IMG/VR virus record: IMGVR_UViG_3300027743_000078
Coordinates: 1-26,593 of that record
Direction: 5' to 3' (one strand)
Source: a virus
DNA length: 26,593 bases
Shown here: in pieces, positions 10,949 to 18,287 of the stretch
Layout: each line of letters begins with the position of its first letter
Position numbering within the stretch: position 1 is the stretch's first letter
Program-made: the position numbers and the translations under genes
Notes under the pieces: generated by a model
Databases searched by the model: none
What the model was told of the DNA's origin: nothing
The model's input: the letters and a program-made list of their open reading frames with translations, nothing else

Positions 10949-11568
10949 TCGCCCTTGACCTCGAGGATCGGCAGCGGGTCCCAGGCGACGAAGTAGCCTT
11001 TGCTGTTGCTCTTGTTGACGATGGCCGGCTTGATGAGGTCGGTGTCGAAGCGCACGTGCTTGTCGTACTGCCCCGACCATCCGCTCGGCGCACCGCCGTG
11101 CACGATGCCGGTGTCGTAGTCGACGGTGCCGCCGCCGACGAGCACGATGGTGCCGTTGACCGGCTTGGTTACCACGATGTCGGCGGTGTAGGCACCGAGG
11201 GTCAGGCGCTTCACCATCTGCATGCCGGCGGGTGATCCCTCGGCATCGATGAACAGTCCCTCGCCGACGGCGGCGCTGTAGTCGAGCGGATCGCGCGCGA
11301 GGAAGCTGTGCGCCATGCCGGCCATGATGCGAAAGAACGAATGCATGAGCCGGTAGTCGATGCGGATGGTGCCGTCGGGGGTGATGTTGTCGCTGCCATC
11401 CGAAAGCGTGCGGTCGTAGTGGCACTCATATTCGAGGCGCTCGAATTGCCAGCCCTGGTTGCGCGACTCCTTGCCGCTGGCGGTGACCACCACGTCGGTG
11501 CGAAAGCGCGGCCCGCCGCCGGAACCGAAGGACAGGCACAGCGGCAGGCGCAGTCGTTTGAAAGCCAT
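10945..11568 (-). CDS. DUF2460/TIGR02217 distal tail protein
   Basis: 207 residues from ATG 11568 with AGGAG six bases upstream; the in-frame TTG at 11571 is less likely. The start overlaps the tape-measure stop as TGATG. Family marks are LPLCLSFGSGGGPRFRTDVV and ASGKESRNQGWQFERLEYEC near the N-terminus, FRIMAGMAHSFLARDPLDY in the middle, and DTGIVHGGAPSGWSGQYDKHVRFDTD at the end, split here only for reading. Family knowledge: this is the GTA gp12-type distal tail ring that joins tube to baseplate. The following DUF2163, NlpC/P60 and hub genes complete the tip module. Confidence 0.88.
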   Translation of the reverse strand: MAFKRLRLPLCLSFGSGGGPRFRTDVVVTASGKESRNQGWQFERLEYECHYDRTLSDGSDNITPDGTIRIDYRLMHSFFRIMAGMAHSFLARDPLDYSAAVGEGLFIDAEGSPAGMQMVKRLTLGAYTADIVVTKPVNGTIVLVGGGTVDYDTGIVHGGAPSGWSGQYDKHVRFDTDLIKPAIVNKSNSKGYFVAWDPLPILEVKGE

Positions 11569-13700
11569 CAACGTCTCCTGGCAGCGCCGGCCGCCACACT
11601 GAACGCCTGCAGTGCGGCCTGCCGATGCGCGCGGGTGTCGGCGTTGCGGTCGATGTTCTGCACGATGGAAATGCGCGGGCCGACGTCGCTGGTGCGCACC
11701 TGGTTGTTGGGCCGGATGCGCGCGCCGGCCGGCAGATCGACGAGCTCCGGGCCCATCTCGCCGACCAACGCCAGGCCGCCGCGATGCACGCCGCCGGTGG
11801 AATACGGATACGGCCCCGGCGGAATCGCACTGCCGGCGGTGCCATAGCCGAGGCCGCCACCGCCCATGCCGCCGAGCATCTTCGCCAACATGCCGAACAC
11901 GTCGGCGCCGCCGCTGGTGTTGCCGCCGAATAGTGCGTTCGCCACGTTCTGCGACGCGAGGCGCGCGAGCTGCCGGGTGATGTCGTTGACCAGATCGCGG
12001 AAGGCATCCTTCGCCGACTTGGCGCCGGTCACGAAGTCGGTGAGCGGGTCGACCAGAGCATCGGAAAACAGGTTCTTGACCTCCTGCAGCTTCCTCGCTT
12101 CTTCCGCCATCTTCTCGGCGATGCGCAGGTCGCCGACGGCGGCATTCGCCTCGCGTAGCGCTGCGGCGACATCGCGGATCGCTTGAGCTTCCTCGGTCCA
12201 GCCTTGCGCTTCTTTGTCCGTCGCTTCGCGTTCCTTCGCGAGTGCCAGCGCTTCCCGCTTGGCGGCCGTGTACGCATCGAGCGCTTCCTTGCCGCCGCGC
12301 AGTTCGATGATCTGCTCGCGAATGCTCTCGTTGCCTCGGCGTATCCCATCCGCCTCGCGCTGTGCCGCTTCGATGGATTTGCGTGTGGCCTCTGCGAACT
12401 TTTCCTTTTCCTTCGCGGCGGCTTCCTGCGACTTCGCGAGTTCTTTGGCGACGCGGTCGGCTTCCTTGCCGGCGTCGATTTCCTTGGCCAGCAGCCGCAG
12501 TTGCGCTTCGCGCTCGGCCGTCAATCCGCTCGTCGCGTCTTTCTGAAGACGCGCGATCTCGAGCTCGACTTTGTCGACCTCGTTTAATTCCTGCTGGGCA
12601 ACGACTTGCCTTTGCAGTGCTTGAATCAGCCGTTCGGCGTCGGTGGTTCTTTCCTTGTCGCCGGCGCCGCCGCGTCCGGGCGGTGGCGGAGGCGGCGCGT
12701 TCGGCTTCGGGCCAAAGACGCCTGAAACATCCTTTTCTATCTGCGATCGCGCCTGCTCGCGTAACCGTTTTTCAAGCGTCGCTTTCTCGGCTTTCAATTG
12801 CTCCAGAACGGACGAATCAAAAAACTGCCGGACTGTGTCTAGTCCCTTGAATGGCGTCGACTCTTTGAGCGAGTCCTGCAGCGCTTCAATTTCTTTATTG
12901 ACGTCGCGCAGCCTCGCCGCATCGCTGCCCGATCGCAGCAATAGGTTTATGGTGCCGGTCAATCCGCGCCCGAAAGAATCGGCCGCGCTCGTCGTGTCGG
13001 TGAACGTCTTGATCAGCGTGATCAACGACGGGACGAGGCTATTCAATACGACTTCGGCGAACTTCTGGCTTTCGTAGCTAAGCCGCGCGTATTCCTTACC
13101 CAGCTGCTCTGCCGCCGCGACTTGCTCGGCGGTGCGCGTCGCCTGGACGTCCTGCAGCGACGACATTTCCTGCAAGATAGCCAGCGTCTTCTTGGCTTGC
13201 CCGCCCCAGATCGCCGTCGCTAGCGCTAGCTTGTTAGGGCCATCGGCATAGGTCGCCAGCTTCAGCGCCAGTTGTTCGAAGGCTTGCGCCGGGTCTTTGG
13301 CCGTGACACCGAGCAGCTGTAGCGTTTTCTGTACGCGCACCGACTGCCGGTCGGTGCCCGCCATGCCTTGCGTCAGCGTGATAAGCGCGTTGTTTAAATC
13401 ATCGATGTTCCCGCCGGCTATCTTCGTCTGATTGTTCAGACGCGATAGCGACTCGACCGACGATCCTGTGGCCTCGGACAAATCCTGAAGCGCGGCGGCT
13501 TCTTCGATGATTTGTTTGGTCGTTTCATAGATCGTCTTACCGATGGCAAGACTGCCGAGCACCTTGCCGATTTCGTCGATCGCCGTTTTGGTATTCGCGG
13601 CGAACTTCTTGGTTTGGTACTCGGCCTTGGTCAGGCCCTTGGTGTATTCGGCCGCGTCAAGGCCCAGCAGGACAACGAGACGACTCAGGACGTTAGCCAT
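11568..13700 (-). CDS. tail tape measure protein
   Basis: 710 residues from ATG 13700, with GAAGG six bases upstream. The N-terminal part (SRLVVLLGLDAAEYTKGLTK; later LQDLSEATGSSVESLSRL) is a classic tape-measure start. The middle, ~380-560, is long charged coiled coil (EKEKFAEATRKSIEAAQREA and similar). The C-terminal part has the lambda gpH-like DFVTGAKSAKDAFRDLVNDI and then a Gly-rich segment ending with GGLALVGEMGPELVDLPAG, a common tape-measure ending. Role by family: sets tail length and is ejected with DNA. At roughly 1.5 angstrom per residue the tail would be about 100 nm, a rough rule-based estimate. It overlaps the tail chaperone frame by 8 bases and is coupled to the DUF2460 gene. 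Confidence 0.92.
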   Translation of the reverse strand: MANVLSRLVVLLGLDAAEYTKGLTKAEYQTKKFAANTKTAIDEIGKVLGSLAIGKTIYETTKQIIEEAAALQDLSEATGSSVESLSRLNNQTKIAGGNIDDLNNALITLTQGMAGTDRQSVRVQKTLQLLGVTAKDPAQAFEQLALKLATYADGPNKLALATAIWGGQAKKTLAILQEMSSLQDVQATRTAEQVAAAEQLGKEYARLSYESQKFAEVVLNSLVPSLITLIKTFTDTTSAADSFGRGLTGTINLLLRSGSDAARLRDVNKEIEALQDSLKESTPFKGLDTVRQFFDSSVLEQLKAEKATLEKRLREQARSQIEKDVSGVFGPKPNAPPPPPPGRGGAGDKERTTDAERLIQALQRQVVAQQELNEVDKVELEIARLQKDATSGLTAEREAQLRLLAKEIDAGKEADRVAKELAKSQEAAAKEKEKFAEATRKSIEAAQREADGIRRGNESIREQIIELRGGKEALDAYTAAKREALALAKEREATDKEAQGWTEEAQAIRDVAAALREANAAVGDLRIAEKMAEEARKLQEVKNLFSDALVDPLTDFVTGAKSAKDAFRDLVNDITRQLARLASQNVANALFGGNTSGGADVFGMLAKMLGGMGGGGLGYGTAGSAIPPGPYPYSTGGVHRGGLALVGEMGPELVDLPAGARIRPNNQVRTSDVGPRISIVQNIDRNADTRAHRQAALQAFSVAAGAARRR

Positions 13701-14040
13701 TGGCGACCTTCTTTCGTTTCTGGCCGAGCTTGAAGATGCGCCCAGTGCCGGCGATGGCCGCGAAGGCGCTCGCCGCCACCGTCGCCGTCGCTGTCGGTTT
13801 CGGTGTCAGCGCTTCGCGCAGTTGCGGATCGAAGATAAATGGCGTGATGGAGTCTGCGCCGGCGGTCATGCGCGCGATGTTGGCGAGCAGCAGCTCGAAG
13901 CGACGGCCCGGCAACCAACGCTTGCGCGCGTAGGTCTGCCACGAGCGCAATTCGTGCTCGTACATGCGCGTGCCCAGTTCGTCCGCTGTCATGCCGAGTT
14001 CAAGCGCCAGGTCGAAGATCAACTCCTGGCGCTCGGTCAG
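13693..14040 (-). CDS. tail assembly chaperone T segment, made as G-T fusion by -1 frameshift
   Basis: This frame encodes 115 residues starting LTERQELIFDLALELGMTADE when read from the slip site at 14040; HELRSWQTYARKRWLPGRR follows, a DUF4035/lambda gpT-like pattern. The only local start is a TTG at 14022 without a good ribosome site, and conserved sequence begins upstream of it. The expected product is therefore the fusion with G (109 + 115 = 224 residues) made by slipping back one base on GGGAAAC. Family knowledge: G and G-T chaperone the tape measure during tail assembly and are absent from the virion. The 3' end overlaps the tape-measure start by 8 bases. Confidence 0.85.
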   Translation of the reverse strand: MTERQELIFDLALELGMTADELGTRMYEHELRSWQTYARKRWLPGRRFELLLANIARMTAGADSITPFIFDPQLREALTPKPTATATVAASAFAAIAGTGRIFKLGQKRKKVANG

Positions 14041-14046
14041 TTTCCC
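14003..14046 (-). promoter_or_regulatory. programmed -1 ribosomal frameshift signal
   Basis: On the minus strand GGGAAAC (14046-14040) sits in frame as G GGA AAC, immediately before the G stop codon TGA (14039-14037). A 6-base spacer follows, then a perfect 9-bp stem, AGCGCCAGG (14033-14025) with CCTGGCGCT (14011-14003), around a 13-base loop. Heptamer, spacer and stem match the layout of efficient -1 signals; lambda uses the sister heptamer GGGAAAG at the same place. Confidence 0.9.
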
Positions 14047-14366
14047 GGGTCACCCTCGAGCGGCCGGGTACCGGCCGCCGTCAGTAGCAGGTAGTCCGAC
14101 CAGTCGGCTTCCTTGAAGATCTCGACCCACTCGGCGGTTTCTTCCGGCGACAGGCGCTTGCCGTCCTCGGTGCAGAGCACACCGGCCATCAGCGTGGCCT
14201 TGGTCGTGTCGTCGGTCGAGTTGGCGATCGCCGCCAGCGCATTGCCGTCGGTGACTTTCAACGGACGAACATAGACCTCGCCGACGCCGGGAATGGTGAC
14301 CGGGATCGCCTTGGACCGGGTCGCGTTCTTCTCGCGCCAACGGCGCTTGGCTTCCGCGTTGTCCAC
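14037..14366 (-). CDS. tail assembly chaperone G
   Basis: 109 residues from GTG 14366, three bases after the tail tube stop; no strong Shine-Dalgarno is visible, so coupling to the tube gene is likely. The protein is small and mostly helical, with IPVTIPGVGEVYVRPLKVTD near residue 20, then LSPEETAEWVEIFKEADWSD. It ends GDPGN at the slip site. Position between tail tube and tape measure plus the frameshift signal identify it as the G-type chaperone more firmly than its sequence alone. Most ribosomes would stop here; a minority would continue into T. Confidence 0.85.
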   Translation of the reverse strand: MDNAEAKRRWREKNATRSKAIPVTIPGVGEVYVRPLKVTDGNALAAIANSTDDTTKATLMAGVLCTEDGKRLSPEETAEWVEIFKEADWSDYLLLTAAGTRPLEGDPGN

Positions 14367-14369
14367 GGC

Positions 14370-15044
14370 TTACGGCGAGGTCGCTGGATCGAGCACGAAG
14401 ATCGGGCCGGTGAGTTTGATGACGGCGTTGCCCTTCCACACCGCCTGGCCGATGGCACCGTTGAAACTGGTGGTCTGCACGGTGCCTAGCATGATGATCA
14501 CGCCGCCGTCGTTGGGGAGCGTGATCTTGACCGCGACGTCGTCGCCGCTCTTTTCCGCCTCGCGCAGTTTGGTCTGCACTTCGGTGAGCGGCGCGAAGTT
14601 GAAGTCGAGCGTGAGCGTGCCGGCATCGGCCAGGCCTTGCTCGAATTCCTTTGCCGTCGAGCAAATGGTGCTGACCTCTTCCTGGTCAGCGCCCCCGCCG
14701 GCCTGCGCCGCGCCGGTGAGCTCGCACATTTCTGAAAACAAGACCTCGGCCAGCGTGCCGCCCGACGTATAGGCGGCGCCCATGCTGTTATCCTCGCCGG
14801 CCAGCTCGAAGTCGCCGACGCCCGGGTTGTCCACCGCGTACAGATTGCCGTTGAACTGCACCGCGCCGACCACGTCGTTGATGCGCACGACGTCGCCGAG
14901 CTCCGCGTCGTGTCCCGCGGCACTGACCACGGGCGGGTTGGCTTGCGTGATGCCGCTGATGGCGAGCGGCGGCGACGTGTCTTCTTCACCGATGCCCACC
15001 TGGATGGTGGAACCCATGAACTTGTAGCGCTGGCCCTGCGACAT
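14370..15044 (-). CDS. major tail tube protein
   Basis: 224 residues from ATG 15044, with AAAGGGA about six bases upstream. It starts MSQGQRYKFMGSTIQVGIGE and has an all-beta composition with alternating short strands (GDVVRINDVVGAVQFNGNLY, then TLTLDFNFAPLTEVQTKLRE, then GTVQTTSFNGAIGQAVWKG). The A-P-L-T-E-V...L pattern and the final strand pair are typical of lambda gpV/HK97-like tube proteins. Its location just before G/T and the tape measure agrees. A terminator-like hairpin 26-45 bases upstream separates it from the preceding gene, so its expression may be set independently. Confidence 0.85.
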   Translation of the reverse strand: MSQGQRYKFMGSTIQVGIGEEDTSPPLAISGITQANPPVVSAAGHDAELGDVVRINDVVGAVQFNGNLYAVDNPGVGDFELAGEDNSMGAAYTSGGTLAEVLFSEMCELTGAAQAGGGADQEEVSTICSTAKEFEQGLADAGTLTLDFNFAPLTEVQTKLREAEKSGDDVAVKITLPNDGGVIIMLGTVQTTSFNGAIGQAVWKGNAVIKLTGPIFVLDPATSP

Positions 15045-16292: not shown

Positions 16293-17113
16293 GCCATGCC
16301 CAGGTCTTCGCGCGGCAGTTTCGCCAAAAGCGACGCGACGCCGAGCGGAATCTCGGCCAGCTTGTCGGTGTCGGTGCCTGCGCGCTGGTCGTACAGGTGG
16401 CACAGCATGAGCAGCATCGCCGCCCGCGCGCGCGCCGGCAGCGGCAGGAACTGCGGCGAGTCGCCCGGCAGGCTGTGGCCGGTGACGTAGCGCACGCGCA
16501 CCGAGCCGATCGAATTGCGCGCGCTCGGCCACGACGTCGCGCCGTAGGCCAGCGTCAGCCGCGCATAAGGCCCGGTGGTGTCGAGTTGGTATGTCGCCGG
16601 GTCGACCGTCACCTCGAGCGCCGCAGCGGCGGCGGCTTCGCCGGCGGCTTCGGCCAGTTCAAGGTCGCCGCTGCTAATGAATTCGGCCTCATAGGCCGCG
16701 ATATAGGCCGCGTCCGCTGCGGCCTGGTCGAGATAAATCACGCTCTCCACCGACTGCACCGGACCCAGCGGCAGATACAACGCCGGGCCGGCAGGCGCGC
16801 GCACCTGCACCGATGGAAATCCATTGCTCACGAGCTCGAGCGTGCGCGGCGCGAACGAGCGCCCGCATTCGGCTTCGCAGTACTCGCGCGCCGCCGGAAT
16901 GCCGACGGTCTGCAGCCAGTCGTCGTCGTCGCTCGCCGGCGGTGAGCCGAAGGCGTCGATGCGGCAATGGGTCCACGCTGTTTCCAGATCGATCGGCTCG
17001 TCGGCCACCGGCACCACTTCGGCCACGCTGTACTGGTAGAGCAGCGCCGCCTGCCGGCGCCGGACATCGGCCAGGAACAACGTCGAATTGCCCACGTCGT
17101 CGTAGAAGATCAT
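16289..17113 (-). CDS. gp6/phiE125-gp8-like head-tail connector (adaptor)
   Basis: 274 residues from ATG 17113 with GGAGG four bases upstream; overlaps the upstream stop as ATGA. After a non-conserved N-terminus, DEPIDLETAWTHCRIDAFG starts the connector core, followed by AAREYCEAECGRSFAPRTLEL and LPLGPVQSVESVIYLD, a pattern typical of the phiE125 gp8 family. RVRYVTGHSLPGDSPQFLPL and RAAMLLMLCHLYDQR near the end are the final helix and strand. An alanine/glutamate-rich segment at ~165-195 (AAYIAAYEAEF, GEAAAAAALEV) is an insertion not usual in the short gp6 forms. Family role: adaptor ring under the portal. Confidence 0.85.
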   Translation of the reverse strand: MIFYDDVGNSTLFLADVRRRQAALLYQYSVAEVVPVADEPIDLETAWTHCRIDAFGSPPASDDDDWLQTVGIPAAREYCEAECGRSFAPRTLELVSNGFPSVQVRAPAGPALYLPLGPVQSVESVIYLDQAAADAAYIAAYEAEFISSGDLELAEAAGEAAAAAALEVTVDPATYQLDTTGPYARLTLAYGATSWPSARNSIGSVRVRYVTGHSLPGDSPQFLPLPARARAAMLLMLCHLYDQRAGTDTDKLAEIPLGVASLLAKLPREDLGMA

Positions 17114-17724
17114 GCCGCCGCCTCCAGGTCGTCGCGCAGGAACGGAAAGCAGCGCAAGGCCGACCCCGGCGTGCAGTTGATGACCTCGACGCCGGCCGGC
17201 AGGTGCTGCGCCATGTGCGCGATGGCGCGCGTGCAGCGCGCGAGGAACGACTGCGACGGGTTGCCGCACGGCCGCGCGTGCGGCGGGTGCCAGTGGCCGC
17301 CGTGCATGTCGAAGCCGAACAGCAGGACGCGCGCAGCACCGGCGTGAACCGCGATCTGGATCGCCTGGCCGCCGGAATTGCCGAGCGTGCGCAGGCACCC
17401 GGGATCGCGATCGAAGCCTTCCGCGCCGCTGTTGCGCAGCACGAGCGACGGGAATGGCAGATCAGGCAGCGTGCCGCGCGTGGGCTCGATGCTCACCCGC
17501 AGTCCGGGGCCCACGTGCGCGTCAGGATGCGCGAGCCACCAGCGGCGGTCGGCGGCGTAGACAATCTCGGCATCACGCGCGAGCTGCCAGGTGGTGTTGA
17601 TGGCGATGCGCGGCAGATGGCGCACGCCGTCGGCGACTGCCTGCGACATCGACGGGCCCGACGCCAGAATGGCGACCGTCTGCCCCGCCCACATGCGCGG
17701 CACGATCCAGTAACGTGCGGTCAT
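17110..17724 (-). CDS. Rossmann-like phage protein (DUF115/sialyltransferase-like fold)
   Basis: 204 residues from ATG 17724, overlapping the previous stop as ATGA. TVAILASGPSMSQAVADGV resembles the GxGPS loop of DUF115/MAF and GT-42 sialyltransferase-like proteins; INTTWQLARDAEIVYAADRRWW follows, and the second half has GNSGGQAIQIAVHAGAARVL and LLFGFDMHGGHW, where the G-F-D-M signature is common in these phage proteins. Family knowledge: homologues are often labelled only as phage morphogenesis-like proteins; GT-42 enzymes transfer sialic acid. A sugar-transfer role is an inference. It lies straight after three collagen-like genes, which may be its substrates. Confidence 0.65.
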   Translation of the reverse strand: MTARYWIVPRMWAGQTVAILASGPSMSQAVADGVRHLPRIAINTTWQLARDAEIVYAADRRWWLAHPDAHVGPGLRVSIEPTRGTLPDLPFPSLVLRNSGAEGFDRDPGCLRTLGNSGGQAIQIAVHAGAARVLLFGFDMHGGHWHPPHARPCGNPSQSFLARCTRAIAHMAQHLPAGVEVINCTPGSALRCFPFLRDDLEAAA

Positions 17725-18287
17725 ACGTTCTCGCGTTGCGGTACGGCGTCCGCGCCCTTCTTGACCGCGAGCTGCCAGTCGCGCGACGCGCCGCCGGGTG
17801 CCGCCTTGGTATCGCGCAGCGCGATCCACAGCGACCCGCCCCAGGTGTAGCACTCACCGGCACTCGCGCCGCTGGCCTTGCCCGACGCCCAGGTGCCGGC
17901 GTAGCGCGGCACTGGGAACGGCAACGCGAACTCCTTGACCACCGCGCCGCGGGTGAAGCGCAGCACCACCGTGCGGCCGTCGTCGCCGAGCTCGGCGGCC
18001 ATGTCGTCGAAGCCGACGCCATCTTCGCCGGCCGGCCCGGGGACGCCATCCTTGCCGTCGCGGCCATCCTTGCCGTCGCGGCCGTCGCGGCCCGATTGCC
18101 CATCCTGCCCGTTGTGGCCGATGCCATCGGAGCCGCGCTCGCCCGGCGCGCCATCCTTGCCGTCGGCGCCGCGCTCGCCGGGTGCCCCGGCCACCGGCGG
18201 CGGCAGTGCCTTGAGGCGCGCGTCGATGCGCGCGTCAACGGCGCGAAAGATCGTGTCGGCCAGCGCGTCGATTTCCGTTTGTGTCAT
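17721..18287 (-). CDS. collagen-like protein with C-terminal binding domain
   Basis: 188 residues from ATG 18287, overlapping the previous stop as ATGA. A ~30-residue helical head ([20 protein letters not shown]) leads into Gly-X-Y repeats at ~35-90 ([19 protein letters not shown], then [16 protein letters not shown]), rich in Asp/Lys/Arg that form salt bridges in collagen triple helices. The C-terminal ~85 residues ([39 protein letters not shown]) resemble a small trp-rich carbohydrate-binding type module found at the ends of phage and bacterial collagen fibres. It is likely a trimeric fibre. Third of three consecutive collagen-like genes. Confidence 0.8.

Follow-up and report, generated by a model that had tools for sequence, protein, structure and literature searches.

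Phage lambda carries its tail genes in the order tail tube, G, T and tape measure, and a −1 slip on a GGGAAAN heptamer near the end of G produces a GT fusion. The G/GT system was reviewed in PMC5009743, where Levin 1993 and Xu 2004, 2013 and 2014 are cited. The lambda heptamer is GGGAAAG and lies 15 nt from the stop codon. In E. coli, lambda's G_GG.A_AA.G is among the best motifs, whereas G_GG.A_AA.C is a low-efficiency motif, yet very likely used by IS elements (PMC4066793). GGGAAAC is used by the Caulobacter phage Colossus (PMC3556154). In Burkholderia phage KL1 (gp18/gp19, JF939047), GGGAAAC stands right before the TGA of the G gene, and a stem-loop was predicted when this site was published (PMC3483164). 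The Streptomyces phages Dubu (gp13/gp14) and phiSASD1 (gp35/gp35.1) have the same GGGAAAC-TGA site in an annotated joined CDS; G-T fusions at this site are annotated in all three phages. In HK97 (gp13/gp14, Hendrixvirinae), T is annotated as "translated due to a −1 frameshift", the heptamer is GGAAAAG at 15 nt before the stop, and there is no significant stem. In relatives of HK97 the heptamer lies right at the stop, for example GGGAAAG-TAG in FSL SP-016. Outside tail genes, the IS3 family and dnaX combine a heptamer with a downstream hairpin stimulator. The published rules for bacterial −1 frameshift stimulators (PMC4066793) describe a hairpin of 17–140 nt, located 4–10 nt past the motif, with a stability of at least 7.6 kcal/mol, a G-C first pair and at least 3 further pairs.

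The window, i.e. the whole stretch of 26,593 nt analysed here, has a GC content of 65.6% and encodes terminase, head/protease, portal, head-tail connector/adaptor, tail, tail fibre and integrase genes. An ORF that matched a phage sialyltransferase family (17110–17853, minus strand; phrog_4603, E 3e-36) sits amid the genes of the head-tail block. Judged from the sequence comparisons below, the tail module of this uncultured, siphovirus-like, integrase-bearing phage very probably contains a signal for programmed −1 ribosomal frameshifting of the kind known from lambda G/GT. The feature is on the minus strand; the earlier note, from which the analysis started, had given plus-strand coordinates for the G-T site. 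The G-like tail assembly chaperone ORF (14037..14366, minus strand) has a GTG start, encodes 109 aa and matched phrog_344 (E 3.6e-7). The major tail (tube) protein gene (14370..15044, minus strand; phrog_584, E 1e-27; PF16460) is located upstream of G. The tape measure protein gene (11568..13700, minus strand; phrog_1538, E 1.3e-14) is located downstream, and its ATG overlaps the 3′-end of T. Read in the −1 frame starting at the heptamer, the T-like region (13693..14046, minus strand) begins with GKLTERQELIFDLALELGMT and comprises 117 open codons and a stop. It matched the tail protein family phrog_337 (E 5.5e-12), and its match to PF06223 Phage_tail_T (E 0.001) was short of the curated cut-off. 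As in lambda, two ORFs lie between the tail tube and tape measure genes, the second in the −1 frame, and both show homology to tail chaperone families (phrog_344 and phrog_337). The predicted fused G-T product is 224 aa long.

The 3′-end of the G-like ORF reads GAG GGT GAC CCG GGA AAC TGA on the minus strand. The heptamer G_GGA_AAC (14040..14046, minus strand) is in slippery phase and is directly followed by the zero-frame TGA (14039–14037, minus strand), just where the earlier note had described it. The site differs from that of lambda in that its heptamer has C, not G, as the last base and abuts the stop. The −1 frame reads TGA CCC GGG AAA CTG ACC GAG CGC CAG GAG TTG ATC TTC and continues with GAC CTG GCG CTT GAA CTC GGC ATG; the post-slip peptide given in the earlier note is thus present. 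The TGA at the beginning of this reading (14050..14052, minus strand) lies one codon upstream of the heptamer and bounds the shift window on that side. Passage from G into the T frame therefore has a stretch of only about 10 nt available, and T cannot simply be initiated further upstream in an overlap with G. A second in-phase heptamer, CCCGGGA (14043..14049, minus strand), overlaps GGGAAAC in the tandem run CCCGGGAAAC; a slip at CCCGGGA would yield a product identical to that of a slip at GGGAAAC. The same tandem run was found in one relative (L176). The heptamer at 14046–14040 was the single in-phase GGGAAAN in 7080 codon steps of the 17 ORFs of the window, in which GGG (98 of 756 Gly codons) and AAA (44 of 251 Lys codons) are minority codons. 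Most matches to the bare pattern GGGAAACTGACNNNNNNCAG were due to chance.

Relatives were gathered with a T protein profile that relied on the peptide pattern [FL]x[MF]DLAL[EA][LS]G alone and was blind to the heptamer. The profile scan yielded 23 loci, about 17 of them distinct after near-identical contigs (L162–L165, L167/L168 and L181/L182) were merged. An in-phase XXXYYYZ heptamer was present at the end of G in 22 of the 23 loci. GGGAAAC was the majority form, and GGGAAAA, CCCAAAA, AAAAAAG and AAAAAAC also occurred. The sole exception, L178 (around position 1501), had no XXXYYYZ heptamer in the G-T overlap; this locus may shift differently or may be misread. Between the heptamer and the zero-frame stop, 21 of these 22 loci have 0 or 3 nt, and L177 has 24 nt. 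GGG and AAA were used in 12 of 12 lineages, against expected third-base shares of 0.22 and 0.18. The −1 peptide GKLTxRQ was kept from the heptamer onward across the relatives. In the close relatives L003, L004 and L006, which show 74–81% identity (likewise for the G homologues of L003 and L004), neither the heptamer nor the TGA nor the 8-bp core of the stem differed. The proposed G-T fusion of the tail chaperones by −1 frameshifting was consistent with every comparative test made, and, as expected of a lambda-type G/GT site, a slippery heptamer is conserved in phase close to the end of G.

The phage collection contained no direct homologue of the G or T of the window, and the genome contigs scanned contained no relative of it. 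T is linked to annotated phages only via one relative (L149), and FSL SP-016 and Dubu extend this link to HK97 and numerous other phages; the T of HK97 and that of FSL SP-016, which served as query, are homologues, and the T of Dubu is a distant homologue. The T of KL1 showed no recognisable similarity beyond GKL, and KL1 has an extra gene before the tape measure gene. We compared 25 known phage G-T junctions for heptamer, stop and stem. The heptamer abutted the stop in KL1, Dubu, phiSASD1, FSL SP-016, Pm34, Psymv2, AbIPP1, H4907, IME1369_02 and PPompW. Strong stems were found at 3 of the 25 junctions, namely those of Dubu, Mcat14 and H4907. In the synonymous-shuffle test, the stem was absent or weak in KL1, lambda and phiSASD1. 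The structure at the KL1 site was not above codon-shuffle expectation here (z about 0.3). Lambda had no stem beyond this expectation (z about +1), in line with the contrast drawn in the earlier note between the lambda GGGAAAG without a clear stem and the window with its downstream stem. The stem of Dubu (z −1.9 to −2.7) differs from that of the window in sequence and position.

In Moraxella phage Mcat14 (L157, KR093638; about position 1480), AAAAAAG is followed by one codon and the stop, the stem is strong (z about −4), and the annotation lists G and T as two separate genes, with no fusion. In Halomonas phage vB_HmeY_H4907 (L192, OQ832096; about position 1007), AAAAAAC stands on TAA with a strong stem (z −3.9), and the tail chaperone is annotated without a fusion. 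A trade-off in which weak heptamers with Z = C carry stems and strong ones with Z = G do not was unsupported on the 25 known phages, because Mcat14 (AAAAAAG) has a strong stem and KL1, phiSASD1, Psymv2 and AbIPP1 (Z = C) have none.

RNAfold predicted a hairpin of 35 nt that starts 4 nt after the heptamer and has 11 bp, including one G-U pair. Its 5′ arm is CGAGCGCCAGG (14025..14035, minus strand) with the conserved core GCGCCAGG (14032–14025), and its 3′ arm is CCTGGCGCTTG (14001..14011, minus strand) with the conserved core CCTGGCGC (14011–14004). The conserved core comprises 8 bp, and the first pair is C-G. A further inner helix of 4 bp was predicted inside the 13-nt loop. The 9-bp stem with a 13-nt loop described in the earlier note is a correct subset of this structure. 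The 6-base spacer given there corresponds to TGA and CCG before the 9-bp stem; the count includes the stop codon, and the RNAfold spacer is 4 nt. The minimum free energy was −22.2 kcal/mol, compared with −12.8 ± 2.6 kcal/mol for dinucleotide shuffles (z −3.6). With 35 nt, a 4-nt spacer, a C-G first pair and −22.2 kcal/mol, the hairpin falls within the rules of PMC4066793. The site thus resembles those of the IS3 family and dnaX in spacing and strength; it differs from them in the gene concerned, and no upstream SD was shown for it.

The arms of the stem encode the conserved residues R-Q and D-L-A-L. This gives rise to the reading that competes best with ours, in which the frameshift is real and the stem is a by-product of RQ....DLAL written in GC-rich codons, with no stimulation. 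Such a peptide in such codons favours a stem of this kind by itself. As a control for coding, synonymous codons were resampled by each contig's own usage, and the shuffles already folded substantially (mean −13.3 vs. −22.2 kcal/mol observed in the window). For the window alone, the stem was stronger than 97–98% of the resamples (p 0.02–0.03). The test was extended to 17 lineages picked without regard to their DNA. Among 13 downstream and 6 upstream windows, over-folding was greatest in the segment just after the heptamer (Stouffer −4.64), and the excess folding over synonymous shuffles was significant with the clade of the window (Fisher 4.5e-6) and without it (1.3e-4). As the 17 lineages are related to one another, the p-values lack strict independence; the unconstrained loop and downstream codons within these sequences served as a control for this. 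The excess was carried by the lineages with the RQ motif, among them the window (Fisher 1.8e-6, with energies beating the shuffles in most of these lineages); the lineages without RQ showed none (Fisher 0.48). Conservation of structure beyond coding constraint was therefore found for the RQ-type lineages only.

Wobble bases were unusually uniform only in codons 0–2 (heptamer and stop), 4–5 and 11–13 (stem). This constraint was absent in the loop codons and in twelve downstream codons, and stem wobble bases far more uniform than those of the loop or downstream codons argue against a by-product. Individual relatives point the same way. In L147 a G-C pair is replaced by A-U through two synonymous changes, and in L176 the stem is lengthened to 11 Watson-Crick pairs; the stem of L138 contains G-U pairs. 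Compensatory change was not above shuffles (111 of 500 shuffles were as high), with one double change in a near-invariant helix. Covariation was dropped as proof of the stem for this reason, i.e. too little variation, and the support for the stem thus rests on synonymous constraint and fold energy. That covariation fails to exceed shuffles is itself in favour of the by-product reading, as are the many G-T sites without a stem; among the relatives, the stem was absent or weak in L009, L132, L167, L180 and L181. Weighing both sides, we consider that the stem has probably been selected, and that a stem arising purely from coding is unlikely, though it deserves the most weight among the rival explanations.

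Other folds were also seen in the relatives. L180, L181 and L182, which have no RQ motif, form a hairpin from other segments with an outer pairing of AGCCAC with GGTGGC, and its energy was not above synonymous shuffles; L181 and L182 have AAAAAAC-TAA in place of GGGAAAC-TGA. A second, weaker fold excess was observed in T at +129 to +190 nt from the heptamer across the 17 lineages (Stouffer about −3.1 at +129 to +144; Fisher 0.001 at +144).

With a selected stem and programmed slippage as the preferred reading, the site may work as follows. We infer that slippage occurs at GGGAAAC. Most ribosomes translating G would terminate at the TGA after GGA AAC and release the short chaperone. In a minority, the tRNAs would re-pair from GGA AAC to GGG AAA, and further translation in the −1 frame would give the 224-aa G-T fusion. 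The hairpin, 4–6 nt downstream, would stimulate slippage at the intrinsically weak heptamer by pausing the ribosome or by pulling on the mRNA, and we regard such a stimulatory role as likely. By analogy with lambda, the G part would bind the tape measure protein, the T part would recruit the tail tube protein, and the slip rate would set the G:GT ratio. The earlier note had proposed that the stem might raise the efficiency of frameshifting. Since GGGAAAC is of low efficiency in E. coli, the stem is more likely to compensate than to boost; it may only make up for the weak heptamer. For the same reason, set against the GGGAAAG of lambda, the presence of the stem should not be taken to mean that this site out-performs that of lambda.

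A different mechanism would place the abutting stop at the centre: slow termination, with UGA in the A site and slippage of the P-site tRNA. UGAC is a poor termination context. The stop adjoins the heptamer in most relatives and in about 10 of the 25 known phages, as slow termination would have it. However, one sense codon separates heptamer and stop in L131, L132, L175 and Mcat14, and lambda has 15 nt between them. UGA, UAA and UAG all occur as stops, and XXX and YYY are both conserved, as two-tRNA slippage predicts. We think it improbable that slow termination is the main driver of the slip.

Still less probable is a separate T protein, made by reinitiation or internal initiation coupled to G, with the heptamer incidental. 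The earlier note had named TTG as the only start that T could have of its own. The TTG (14020..14022, minus strand) has an SD-like GGAG at zero spacing and is missing in the closest relatives, and it is not the only candidate, as an in-frame ATG (13990..13992, minus strand) follows. Start codons near the beginning of T are thus available. The ATG at 13992, however, has no SD, and its use would delete the conserved first 18 codons of T, while the −1 peptide is conserved from the heptamer on. No T start codon was common to all relatives examined, unlike the heptamer. The earlier note had set a normal T start and a missing heptamer in relatives against the frameshift; the relatives showed neither pattern, with the heptamer in 22 of 23 loci and no universal T start. 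An independent start, with the TTG at this spacing and the ATG without SD, was rejected as the main route to T in the window.

In eight relatives (L160, L138, L144, L009, L010, L131, L175 and L149), T has an in-frame ATG at codon 10–11 with AGGA(G) 6–7 nt upstream of it. This pair is found some 30 nt downstream of the heptamer; the 5′ arm of the hairpin carries the SD, and the loop contains the ATG. It speaks for separate initiation in those phages, where some free T could be made; codon 10 of T in the window is TTC. A broader proposal is that, across a widespread clade of uncultured phages, the hairpin both drives slippage at a weak, stop-abutting heptamer and holds the SD and ATG for free T. 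We consider this dual role improbable. If it were true, G, GT and T would come from one site in many members of the clade, but not in the window, which lacks the SD and ATG.

An assembly error or pseudogene, conceivable for a single metagenomic contig, is hardly credible, as about 17 independent contigs show the same heptamer and the same relation of the two frames. Readthrough of the stop codon was rejected: it would stay in the zero frame and meet the next TGA after five codons, so T would not be reached.

Overall, the site appears to belong to the known lambda-type G/GT frameshift family, in a clade with a conserved, stimulator-like hairpin. Obtaining two forms of a tail-building helper protein from one gene, through a one-base backward slip of a few ribosomes, is a familiar trick of tailed phages, and this picture is left unchanged. 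A stem at such sites is also already known from the prediction made for KL1, whose GGGAAAC-TGA site is identical (PMC3483164). What is added to the G/GT frameshift family is a clade of uncultured phages in which the hairpin is backed by synonymous-site constraint, rather than by one fold alone. The case for the hairpin matters because the lambda site has no hairpin, and because it has been doubtful what hairpins contribute at tail-chaperone sites. With its weak heptamer and its stem, the site would be a short natural cassette in which their control of the G:GT ratio could be measured.
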